Source of the DNA: Oscillatoria sp.
Lineage (GTDB): Bacteria > Cyanobacteriota > Cyanobacteriia > Cyanobacteriales > Laspinemataceae
Direction: 5' to 3'
Assembly (NCBI GenBank): GCA_011390515.1
Contig: JAABSJ010000023.1
Location: forward strand, 1-43,161
DNA length: 43,161 nucleotides
The notes below the pieces were generated by a model that worked only from the letters and a program-made list of their open reading frames with translations, ran no database searches and had not been told where the DNA came from. How positions within the stretch are numbered: position 1 is the first letter of the stretch; each line of letters starts with the position of its first letter. The translations under genes were made by a program, and so were the position numbers. Below, piece after piece: positions 1,980 through 36,944 of this stretch.

Positions 1980-2101
1980 ATACCAAATCCAGTTGTTAAA
2001 AGTCGGTTTTCTCTCTTAGCCCGCGCAGGCGGGCTTCGTCCGTATAGCCCCAGGCTTCAGCCTGCGGGTTTTTACAGACCTTTGACAACCGGATTCCGTA
2101 T
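1980..2101 (+). repeat. Interspersed repeat family 1, complete copy
   Basis: The element begins ATACCAAATCC and ends GGATTCCGTAT, so its ends form an imperfect inverted repeat. Inside are a GC-rich hairpin (GCCCGCGCAGGCGGGC) and a conserved tail with the word GCGGGTTTTTACAGACC. The same architecture recurs at 3361-3606, 7274-7574 and 22413-22560, with fragments elsewhere, so this is a dispersed MITE- or REP-like family. It contains no gene. Its position just past the 3' end of the second pentapeptide gene suggests it may also act as a transcriptional end. Confidence 0.8.
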
Positions 2102-10585: not shown

Positions 10586-10939
10586 TCACCGTTTTCCATG
10601 CAAGCTCAAGGCTCTAAATTGACTCGCTTGTTGTTCAATCCGCTCTGCAAGGCGATCGCAGACCAGATTACACAGATCGAAAATCAGGGGATCCTCGACG
10701 CGATAATAAGCCGAAGTCCCTTCAGTGCGACGACTGAGGATTCCCGCTTGCAACATGACTTTAAGATGTTTAGAAACATTGGCCTGACTCGTTGAAGTGG
10801 CATCCACTAACTCTTGCACGCATTTTTCGCCATCTCTGAGTAAGTTTAAGAGCTTCAAGCGCATTGGCTCACTCAAAATACTGAAATATTCCGCCACTTG
10901 TTGCAATACCTCTGGGGGTAAGGGTTGCGCTCGTTTCAT
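10586..10939 (-). CDS. ArsR/SmtB-family winged-helix regulator
   Basis: The 117-residue protein is a stand-alone ArsR-type winged helix: dimerisation helix, FSILSEPMRLKLLNLL, recognition helix TSTSQANVSKHLKVMLQAG, and wing ILSRRTEGTSAYYRVED. It binds DNA as a dimer and usually represses under control of a metal or redox signal. The classic CxCxD metal motif of ArsR/SmtB is absent. Cysteines occur in GEKCVQEL and in DLCNLVCDR, so thiol sensing is possible but unproven. The ATG was chosen because AAGGAG lies seven bases upstream; a longer frame runs into the neighbouring hairpin. No operon partner follows, so the target is unknown. Confidence 0.85.
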   Translation of the reverse strand: MKRAQPLPPEVLQQVAEYFSILSEPMRLKLLNLLRDGEKCVQELVDATSTSQANVSKHLKVMLQAGILSRRTEGTSAYYRVEDPLIFDLCNLVCDRLAERIEQQASQFRALSLHGKR

Positions 10940-10960
10940 CAAAAAACTCCTTGGTGGATA

Positions 10961-10989
10961 CCCCCGCCTCGCGCCTGCACCGGCGGGGG
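10961..10989. repeat. GC-rich hairpin between isrB and the ArsR gene
   Basis: CCCCCGCC and GGCGGGGG are perfect 8-bp arms around a 13-base loop. The site is in the leader of the ArsR gene and just downstream of the IsrB stop, so it may be the 3' end structure of the IsrB element, a terminator or an ArsR leader hairpin. Confidence 0.45.
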
Positions 10990-11002
10990 AGGAAAACAAG
11001 TG

Positions 11003-12118
11003 TCAGGCAATGGAGGGTTCTACATTGACTGACAAATAGCGTGGACGAGATACCAGTAACCCAGTGGCGCGATGGATTAACTGGACTTTGGAAGCACTAA
11101 ACTGTCCGAGTCTCTTCCCGTCAAAATTAGAAACACTGACCTGTCGGGCGGTATCGCCACTGACCCAACCCATGACAACCCGTTCTGCCATAGAAGCCCG
11201 AACGAGGTCGCCTTTCCTCACCCCATGCCTTGTGGTTGTTCCCCCATATTTGCGGCGAACACCCCCTTTTGAGGGAACCATCAGATGCAGTTGTCGGCGA
11301 GAAATCGGAGGTCTACGAATGACCACAAAGGCTGAAAGCGTCATTTTGACAGAACCCTTCCAGGTATGGCCGTGAGTTGTCGCGGTATAGAATGGTTTGT
11401 ATTTGATGAACTCAGAACAGGCTAAAGCCACTCCATCAACTGCATGACTTTCAGGGTTTTGGCTTGATTTGTCTTGGGATTTAACCAGTCCTAATTGAGC
11501 TCTAAGACTAGCAGTTTTGTATCCAAACCTAGTTTCAACGGGAGCCAATTTTGCCAGCCAAGTTAACATGACTTTTTGTCCCACCATAACTGGAGAGAAA
11601 GATTTTGAACCCCTGGCTTTTACATATTCGTAGACAATTTTGCTAACCGGAAACAATCGACATAGTTCAGTCACCACCCGCAACTCAATCTGACGATTGG
11701 CTCGAATAGAAGGAGGAAGTTGATTCCCTCTGCGGTTATCAAATCGTTTTTGTCGGTGGGCGAGCTTGGAGTATTGGACTTGGCGGTTAATCCGGTGTCC
11801 TCTCCGGTTACGCCGCATCATTCGACGTTGCTCCATCCGTTCTTTAACGGTCTGGAATGGCCGAATCAAGTCAGCCATAAATAGAGTGGCTTTGGCTGAT
11901 TGTACTCCGATCCCGGAATATAACTTGCCTGGGTCAACCCCAACGGCAATTAGTTGGGTTTCTTTCCCAGAAGGCTGTTCAGTCAGTTGGACATAAAACA
12001 CCCCCAAATCTGACCATTTGCCCATAGCTAAACCACCTCGCATCCAGCGACGGGCGCGACTGGGTTTAGTGGGCATTAAAGGCTTGCCATCGGGTGATAA
12101 AACTGGAACTCTCAGCAT
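11003..12118 (-). CDS. isrB: IsrB-type RuvC nuclease (IscB/Cas9 relative without HNH)
   Basis: Read from MLRVPVLSPDGKPLMP, the product has 371 residues. In order it shows the N-terminal PLMP motif (13-16), RuvC-I with Asp62 in VGVDPG, an Arg-rich bridge helix with the RRXRR motif (RRNRR, 102-106), RuvC-II with Glu164 in KIVYEYV, and RuvC-III with SHAVDG (His225, Asp228). Only about 60 residues separate RuvC-II and RuvC-III, so the HNH domain of IscB is missing. This is the definition of IsrB, an RNA-guided nickase of the OMEGA group. The C-terminal part (RRQLHLMVPSKGGVRRKYGG) matches the family's target-interaction region. The RuvC residues look intact. The frame extends upstream to 12265, but that part overlaps the expected omega RNA; ATG 12175 is an alternative start. 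No TnpA transposase is near. Confidence 0.85.
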   Translation of the reverse strand: MLRVPVLSPDGKPLMPTKPSRARRWMRGGLAMGKWSDLGVFYVQLTEQPSGKETQLIAVGVDPGKLYSGIGVQSAKATLFMADLIRPFQTVKERMEQRRMMRRNRRGHRINRQVQYSKLAHRQKRFDNRRGNQLPPSIRANRQIELRVVTELCRLFPVSKIVYEYVKARGSKSFSPVMVGQKVMLTWLAKLAPVETRFGYKTASLRAQLGLVKSQDKSSQNPESHAVDGVALACSEFIKYKPFYTATTHGHTWKGSVKMTLSAFVVIRRPPISRRQLHLMVPSKGGVRRKYGGTTTRHGVRKGDLVRASMAERVVMGWVSGDTARQVSVSNFDGKRLGQFSASKVQLIHRATGLLVSRPRYLSVNVEPSIA

Positions 12119-12345
12119 TGTTTGTGATAAACCTCCAATAGGAGTGATTGTCTTTTCAAACACCGAATCCAACATGGCTTGGCTTTCCCAACGTCTTAAC
12201 CAGAAGACTTGCAGATAATCCGGCCTAGAGAAGCAGCCGTTCGTGCGTGGCAGAATTCGGATCAAGGGCTATTCAAAGTTTCAGTGGGACTGGCTTCCCA
12301 CTCTCCCACCTCACGGAACTTAGGTGGGAGTTATTGAAGGCTGGT
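12119..12345 (-). ncRNA. Candidate omega RNA (HEARO) of the IsrB locus
   Basis: IscB/IsrB guide RNAs are encoded directly upstream of the nuclease, so this is where it should lie. On the minus strand the region holds CTCCCACCT/AGGTGGGAG (arms 12303-12311 and 12322-12330) and GTGGGA/TCCCAC (12284-12289 and 12296-12301) side by side, both enclosed by TTCAA/TTGAA pairing (12272-12276 with 12334-12338), a multibranched structure. The 3' end should abut the isrB start. The 5' end, which sets the guide, is not resolved: it may be near 12345 or, if the element follows the GTGA at 12463-12466, up to about 12462. Confidence 0.55.
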
Positions 12346-12431
12346 CCTAAAGAATTACCCATTTTTATATGTTCCTATTGTAACAGTAAACCGATTTATG
12401 ACAATTAAGTAATTAAAGGGAGTAAACTCAA

Positions 12432-12465
12432 GAGTCGATTGTCTTGCGCGCAAGGCAATCGACTC
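12432..12465. terminator. Long hairpin downstream of accB
   Basis: The 34-base inverted repeat runs from GAGTCGATTG to CAATCGACTC with CTTGC/GCAAG inside and a single T/G mismatch that would pair in RNA. CTCAA and TTGAG further out can extend it. It lies 22 bases past the accB stop, as expected for a terminator, though the T-run is weak. It could also be the 5' boundary structure of the IsrB element. Confidence 0.5.
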
Positions 12466-12486
12466 ACCCCTTGAGACGGGAAAACA

Positions 12487-13041
12487 TTACTCGGGGCTAA
12501 TCCGCATTAAAGACTGACCGTATTCCACCGGAGTGCCATTTTCGACCAAAATTTCCACCACTTGTCCGGAAACCTCTGCCTCGATTTCATTCATCAACTT
12601 CATCGCCTCAATGATGCAGACGGTTTGGCCGAGTTTGATGCGATCGCCCACGGCGACAAATGGGGCTTCATCAGGAGAGGGAGAGCGATAGAAGGTCCCC
12701 ACCATTGGGGAAATGACCTCCAAAAACTTACGATCGTTCGTCACCGGAGCCGGAGCACCGGGACCCCCGGGGGCATTCCCCCCCGTAGGCCCTGGGGTCC
12801 CTGACGAGGGAGGGGCTGTGGGAATAGCCTGCTCAATCGGGGGACCCGAACGGGCGATCGCCCCGGTTCCCTCCGCCATCGGCAGCAACCCCGGATCAAC
12901 CGGGATCCCCACCCGCTCGGCAATCATCCTGTCCTTGCGGAGGGTCAGCTCAAAATCGCCACTTTTTAAAATCAGCTCAGAAATATCCGTTCCATTGAAA
13001 GCCCCAAGCAGCTCACTCAGTTGGCTTAAATCCAGTTGCAC
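12487..13041 (-). CDS. accB: Biotin carboxyl carrier protein of acetyl-CoA carboxylase
   Basis: The product, 184 residues, carries biotin for acetyl-CoA carboxylase, the first committed step of fatty acid synthesis. Its C-terminal biotinyl domain (about residues 105-182) has the EAMKLM signature with the biotin-accepting Lys148. Before it lies a Pro/Gly/Ala-rich linker (about 65-100) that acts as a flexible arm, and an N-terminal conserved helical segment beginning [15 protein letters not shown]. efp lies upstream on the same strand, an order widely kept in cyanobacteria, with about 200 bases between, so the two may be co-transcribed. Confidence 0.95.
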
Positions 13042-36683: not shown

Positions 36684-36944
36684 GAATTTTAAAGTTTAGA
36701 GTTTAGTTTAGAGTTTCGCTCTAGCTGTCATTGTAGAATTATCCCTGGGGTAATGGCGAACACTCCCAGTTTTCATACTTTTAATTTGCATAATTTTTAA
36801 CCAACCCCGCACCCTAAAGGGTGGGACTACACGAACGAAGCCCGCCTGCGCGGGCTAACTCCTCTTCTCGTATCATGGCTCTGCCGTGATACGCACCTCT
36901 TGCGGCTCTGCCGCCTAATTAAAAACCGATGGGACTGACATCTT
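36684..36944. other. Spacer with a family 1 fragment and two small hairpins
   Basis: A family-1 fragment (CCGCACCCTAAAGGGTGGG and CCCGCCTGCGCGGGC) lies at about 36799-36861 on the minus strand. Next come CGTATCATGGC/GCCGTGATACG and GCGGC/GCCGC hairpins (36878-36915). No gene is seen. Confidence 0.5.

Follow-up and report, generated by a model that had tools for sequence, protein, structure and literature searches.

An IsrB element directly before an arsR-like gene in Oscillatoria sp. and the gene-start position of many of its relatives

The isrB gene and its ωRNA

We analyzed a stretch of 43,161 nucleotides (nt) from Oscillatoria sp. of the order Cyanobacteriales (assembly GCA_011390515.1, contig JAABSJ010000023.1, positions 1 to 43,161), referred to below as the window. 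It contains an element that carries isrB, a gene for a predicted RNA-guided nickase, together with an ωRNA. The element separates a gene for an ArsR/SmtB-family regulator, at its start codon, from its leader (Table 1). Judged by homology, the locus encodes a full-length IsrB of the OMEGA group; the enzyme and its RNA are a fresh example of an already known kind of system.

Table 1. Features of the isrB locus in the window
Feature	Coordinates	Strand	Description
IsrB element	10940..12338	-	1399 bp, between the arsR leader and ATGA; empty sites in genomes G143 and G183
isrB	11003..12118	-	Predicted RNA-guided nickase, 371 amino acids; D62, E164, H225, D228; R336 and Q339 predicted to read the target-adjacent motif
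ωRNA scaffold	12119..12338	-	S1, two hairpins, S2, nexus-pseudoknot hairpin, adaptor-pseudoknot hairpin; supported by covariation; 3' end approximate
Presumed guide	12339..12354	-	Equals the arsR leader; holds an AGGA Shine-Dalgarno-like stretch; borders the conserved left end on its 5' side
Right-end hairpin	10961..10989	-	CCCCCGCC/GGCGGGGG, read directly
AAGGAG Shine-Dalgarno-like motif	10947..10952	-	On the right end of the element, 7 nt ahead of the downstream ATG
ATGA	10936..10939	-	Putative target-adjacent motif, insertion site and arsR-like start codon in one
ArsR/SmtB-family regulator gene	10586..10939	-	Start codon directly adjoins the element; scores 85.2 bits (cut-off 55) against NCBIfam HTH_metalloreg
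TTGTCA-16-TACAAT	12377..12404	-	Promoter-like sequence of arsR, outside the element, upstream of guide and ωRNA; found by eye

The start of isrB was taken as the ATG at 12118; a longer open reading frame (ORF) with a TTG start reaches 12265, reading through the ωRNA. In a phmmer search, residues 2–354 aligned to the IsrB of Desulfovirgula thermocuniculi (DtIsrB, PDB 8dmb) with an E value of 3.8e-52, and 138 of the 325 aligned residues were identical. IscB chains among the matches listed were aligned mostly over the N-terminal part, with a best E value of 1.4e-9. The Pfam scan of the protein gave RRXRR only, without an HNH domain. In the alignment with DtIsrB, the RuvC residues D62, E164, H225, and D228 were intact, and the stretch from E164 to H225 measured 61 residues (67 in DtIsrB), which leaves no room for an HNH domain. 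The PLMP domain, the RRXRR region, and the split RuvC (D, E, H, D) by which IsrB is recognized are all present, and an earlier note on this DNA, which had read the same motifs, the same catalytic residues, and about 60 residues in place of the HNH domain from the letters, is borne out on each point. An identity as IscB does not fit: the protein lacks an HNH insert in RuvC, and the score against NCBIfam guided_IscB was 101.7 bits with a cut-off of 175 and covered the N-terminal part only.

The residues of DtIsrB that read the target-adjacent motif (TAM) are R323 and Q326 (PMC9581776); their counterparts here are R336 and Q339, the numbering being matched via the R-x-x-Q spacing. DtIsrB shares with our protein near full-length homology, the RuvC residues, the equivalents of R323 and Q326, and the absence of HNH, as well as an upstream ωRNA with S1, S2, nexus and adaptor pseudoknots, and a TAM of the NTGA type (PMC9581776). 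The two systems differ in scaffold length (approximately 220 nt here, roughly 300 nt in DtIsrB) and in flank, which is ATGA here, whereas DtIsrB prefers TTGA at 60 °C (PMC9581776).

For the RNA, 69 non-redundant regions upstream of related isrB genes were collected, of which 55 were ATGA-type and 14 were not. The alignment comprised 39 of the 55 ATGA-type regions; the other 16 were set aside for greater divergence or for left ends that were long or uncertain. RNAalifold predicted 24 pairs, and 22 of these showed one or more compensated changes. When every pair of columns was scanned, two further pairings emerged: S1, the stem that closes the structure, and a pseudoknot between the strand after S2 and the loop of a hairpin spanning columns 118–142, as in the published account of DtIsrB. 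The resulting model of 32 pairs including the pseudoknot had 97.3% of cells paired in the 39 relatives, with 25 of the 32 pairs changed on both sides. When the model was slid by 1–3 columns, 25–51% of cells were paired, and none of 500 shuffles reached the real value on any of five measures; since the structure was drawn from the same alignment, some excess over the slides is expected. The nexus pseudoknot (5 pairs, 3 of them changed on both sides) was paired in 99% of cells. The adaptor pseudoknot between stem-loops (SL) 2 and 5 was supported at the level of the family: the mean longest complement was 5.5, compared with 3.98 in mismatched pairs, a value reached in 0 of 2000 permutations, and a complement of at least 5 was found in 28 of the 39 regions. 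In the window itself the longest complement is 4, which is weak taken alone. These patterns indicate that the upstream DNA encodes a genuine ωRNA, the nexus pseudoknot included.

The fold also matches the earlier description of two adjacent hairpins closed by a third pairing, the latter corresponding to columns 1–5 with 77–82. The proposed extent up to 12345 did not hold, as the element ends at 12338. The covariation resembles the group-B ωRNA pairing (SL2–SL5 and SL4 with the SL7-side strand) of CwIsrB from Crocosphaera and DsIsrB from Dolichospermum, which are reported to have an NTG TAM; the likeness is drawn from their published description (PMC9581776).

The same note had proposed the HEARO covariance model (Rfam RF02033) as a check, and here its expectation failed: the model gave no match in the window at the gathering threshold, nor in 10900–12600 at E values up to 10, and each of 20 related loci was likewise negative at the gathering threshold. 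It did find three sites elsewhere in the same genome, so the miss fits another type of ωRNA and is no argument against IsrB. HEARO is thus ruled out as the identity of this RNA, which is of the IsrB type and is backed by covariation instead. The assignment to an IsrB-type OMEGA locus with an ωRNA holds through homology to DtIsrB, the RuvC residues, the lack of HNH, RNA covariation, the pseudoknots, and the NTGA-type flank.

Boundaries of the element and its empty sites

Orthologs of the arsR-like gene, 93–97% identical, were found in all seven other genomes of the same genus searched, and none of these seven loci contained the element. The joined flanks of the element match an uninterrupted site in G143 and G183 (genomes and loci are designated by G and L numbers), where the 20 nt made up of left flank and ATGA occur without mismatches; in the other five same-genus genomes, no match to left flank plus ATGA was found within two mismatches. 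These empty sites place the element at 10940–12338, inserted without loss or duplication between AGGACCAGCC and ATGAAACGAGCG. The comparison with empty sites that the earlier note had suggested thus fixed both ends, the left one short of 12345. A fixed short flank, the absence of target duplication, and a hairpin near the end are features of the IS200/IS605 type, and hairpins comparable to that of the window precede the element end in many relatives. The NTGA-type TAM was read off the flank and is represented by ATGA together with R336/Q339.

We take 16 nt to be the length of the ωRNA guide. The sequence of this length next to the left end is followed by ATGA in the two empty-site genomes and by TTCA, which is not NTGA, in the window; in the own genome of the element, the identical flank occurs only with TTCA after it. 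Guide and TAM are therefore joined in the sister genomes and their junction is destroyed in the occupied allele. The same-genus empty sites keep the sequence TTGTCA-16-TACAAT ahead of arsR, and it probably acts as the arsR promoter. Nicking, use of the guide, and transposition by the element are likewise predicted from sequence.

Empty sites were also recovered for relatives. The element of G088 has one in G071 (300 of 300 bases, 94%), and the element before dapB in G140 has them in G075, G199, and G201; for the G105 element, two other same-genus genomes gave partial matches only, at 75–76% over part of the query. The closest relative among the matches listed, the isrB of the same-genus genome G113 (L032/L003), encodes a protein 87% identical and occupies a different site, the arsR site of G113 being empty. 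In L034, an element is docked directly ahead of an apparent leftover right end of another element, which itself stands before an ATGAAA frame.

No Y1_Tnp match was found in or beside the element. The own genome, which is 87.5% complete, has two Y1_Tnp matches, both on other contigs and one in a setting like that of repetitive extragenic palindromes (REP). When the ends of nine elements were compared with 26 loci, no transposase with matching ends was found among the Y1_Tnp loci of the own genome and six relatives; the comparison gave just short hairpin similarity to two loci of G009, one of which (L244) reads as a tnpA/tnpB pair. Two Rfam CRISPR-DR28 matches in the window (2017–2040 and 36834–36857) are GCCCGC/GCGGGC palindromes like those flanking the Y1 transposase of L163, and are probably REP-like repeats rather than clustered regularly interspaced short palindromic repeats.

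Right flanks of related elements and gene starts

Matches to the protein, weak ones included, occurred in at least 108 of the 195 genomes sampled from the order. Among the matches listed, 110 loci were taken by match length and identity and not by flank; after removal of 7 duplicates and 4 loci with unclear ends, 99 right junctions were obtained. Their flanks were ATGA in 82 cases, TTGA in 13, ATGG in 2, and GTGA and ATAA in 1 each. An element was counted as lying at a gene start (docked) when its ATG opened an ORF of at least 60 amino acids and the frame ahead of it, read across the joined empty site, stayed open for fewer than 40 codons; control sites came from 15 stretches, each of 20 kb.

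By this rule, 52 of the 82 ATGA elements lie at gene starts, compared with 155 of 2170 control ATGA sites (binomial p = 6e-39). Outside long ORFs the proportions were 46/67 and 98/666 (binomial p = 3e-23). No TTGA element lies at a gene start (0/13, with 159/3497 control TTGA sites; outside long ORFs 0/10 and 63/1019), and the ATGA and TTGA elements differ with a Fisher p of 1e-5. With controls at 4.5%, the count of 0 of 13 is no deficit in itself. In a tree of DtIsrB and the 99 loci, the TTGA group formed a single clade of 13 (support 0.992), so the difference between ATGA and TTGA elements counts as one evolutionary comparison only. The copies are related by descent, but they occupy different insertion sites save for two apparently shared pairs; with these collapsed, 51 of 80 ATGA elements are at starts. 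The left end was missed by the motif, and guessed or missing, in 15 of the 99 loci; restricting the count to left ends located by the motif leaves 45 of 70 ATGA elements at starts.

The rule errs in both directions: some of the ORFs that pass are short (60–76 amino acids), and five more ATGA elements open ORFs of at least 60 amino acids yet fail the upstream test. Most of the downstream ORFs are real genes: in a random draw of 20 among the 52, 16 scored above the Pfam cut-off, with matches including DapB, SecD/SecF, RimK, and a nitrogenase-type oxidoreductase. Among the ATGA elements outside ORFs, 47 of 67 lie within 100 nt of the start of an ORF of at least 150 codons (130 of 666 controls), and 42 of these 47 are at offset 0. 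A Shine-Dalgarno match of at least 4 nt was present on the right end of 39/82 ATGA elements, 0/13 TTGA elements, and 329/2521 control ATGA sites.

The fourth base of the TAM tracks the residue that reads it. Where this base is A, the position of Q326 was occupied by Q in 97 of 97 loci (82 ATGA, 13 TTGA, 1 GTGA, and 1 ATAA), while in the two ATGG loci (L090 and L099) R and K replace this Q. The ATGG junctions had been fixed before the residue was inspected, and they are two loci only. The replacement is as predicted by the Q326R mutant of DtIsrB, which accepts TTGG and ATGG (PMC9581776). The position of R323 was R in 97 of 99 loci, and L and Q in two TTGA loci. The ATGG loci, with their R or K at the position of Q326, are candidates for natural variation in TAM choice.

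HEARO elements have been described as adjoining ATGA or GTGA. In the loci examined, IscB/HEARO (RF02033) elements resemble the IsrB elements in having their left end on the guide side and ATGA or GTGA at the right, some of them at gene starts; they differ in the HNH domain of IscB and in an RNA that the covariance model places in a different family. We collected 20 HEARO loci from three genomes, a small hand-curated sample in which 11 junctions were assigned by script from end motifs written by eye: 8 of the 11 open an ORF of at least 60 amino acids and 6 pass the full rule, the junction of one, L211, being uncertain. In G016, G056, and G009, the HEARO elements L209, L216, L219, L220, L221, L224, and L227 end at an ATGA or GTGA that opens an ORF of 132–628 codons; L221 fails the upstream test. 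Start-codon docking of IscB/HEARO elements is only a lead. In the own genome, a HEARO at L149 1501–1728 (minus strand), with a right end near 1253 and no apparent ORF, has CCAGGAGGTAAGAAAG directly before ATGAACTTTGC and is perhaps another such docking. At L148 639–1921, also in the own genome, an IscB-like ORF with an HNH-like motif seen by eye stands just downstream of a HEARO RNA and seems split across two overlapping frames.

Start codons as probable docking sites

We consider it highly probable that the locus as a whole is best explained by an IsrB element docked at a start codon, with a guide provided by the host leader. In this reading, the element is IS200/IS605-like, with the IsrB nickase and ωRNA only and no transposase of its own, and inserted at the ATGA that forms the arsR-like start codon, facing the gene. 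The host promoter upstream would make a shared transcript with the guide, that is, the leader of the gene, first, followed by ωRNA, isrB, and arsR. IsrB and its RNA could nick copies of the empty site, favouring re-copying of the element after its loss or into sister chromosomes; work on TnpB and IscB provides the analogy for a nuclease that acts on the empty allele and promotes copying back. The right end would supply a new leader, here with AAGGAG, keeping the downstream gene translated. Reading of NTGA would make the TAM coincide with ATG starts, and selection or target choice would concentrate ATGA elements there.

Several results weigh against this explanation. Without a matching transposase gene, mobility in trans is an assumption. 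The right-end Shine-Dalgarno match is not commoner in docked elements (21/52) than in undocked ones (18/30), so that it is unsupported as a cause of docking. A need for a host promoter, as the driver of docking, would lead TTGA elements to favour leaders as well, but in that clade 2 of 10 elements are within 100 nt of a gene start, with 132 of 1019 controls. Of the ATGA junctions, 40 of 82 were set by hand, with end motifs written after the flanks had been viewed, which may have introduced bias; among the 42 assigned automatically, 25 are at starts. The G113 element, the closest relative among the matches listed, is not at a gene start by the rule used.

An ordinary IsrB element whose position merely reflects purifying selection, with a transposase cutting at any ATGA, insertions in genes being lost and those just before a start surviving as the least harmful, is a serious alternative, although we lean slightly against it. 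It accords with ATGA being the commonest flank, with 67 of the 82 ATGA insertions lying outside long ORFs, and with the elements at non-start ATGA (30 of 82). Selection against gene interruption alone, however, does not predict the excess at starts that persists outside long ORFs; sparing of promoters might add to it. The need of a promoter could itself be the reason: as the guide lies outside the element, only insertions into leaders would make guides and be retained by RNA-guided copying. The location of the guide 5' of the left end and the conserved promoter-like sequence just upstream of it in the window speak for such promoter capture, which we nevertheless find unlikely. The TTGA clade shows no clear preference for leaders, leaving capture unsupported as the sole cause, and the ATGA elements near gene starts are found at offset 0 instead of being spread through leaders. 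Taken together, the 42 of 47 and the TTGA counts assign the excess to exact starts in ATGA elements.

That the element is an inactive relic kept by chance appears improbable. The lack of a transposase and the single full-length copy in this incomplete genome would suit a fossil, but the catalytic and TAM-reading residues and the reading frame are intact, and none of the seven same-genus genomes that have the gene carries an element there, which suggests a recent insertion. A TAM that is also a start codon would explain the location of such elements, the promoter for a guide lying outside them, and their tolerance before genes such as dapB and secF.

A search of literature titles and abstract openings, with the core HEARO, ISC, and OMEGA literature outside its scope, found no earlier description of start-codon docking, and the available text of the paper on CwIsrB and DsIsrB contains no mention of this position for either (PMC9581776). 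OMEGA nucleases have been studied mainly as tools, and the life of their elements in host genomes is less clear. We tentatively propose that cyanobacterial IsrB elements, and perhaps IscB elements, are start-codon-docking transposons in which the TAM doubles as a start codon and the nickase homes on gene starts. If this is true, a docked element would always face a gene, use the host promoter and a leader guide, and give the gene a replacement leader; the native guide of a docked element is then predicted to be the leader of its host gene, and such elements could sit even before genes that are likely essential.
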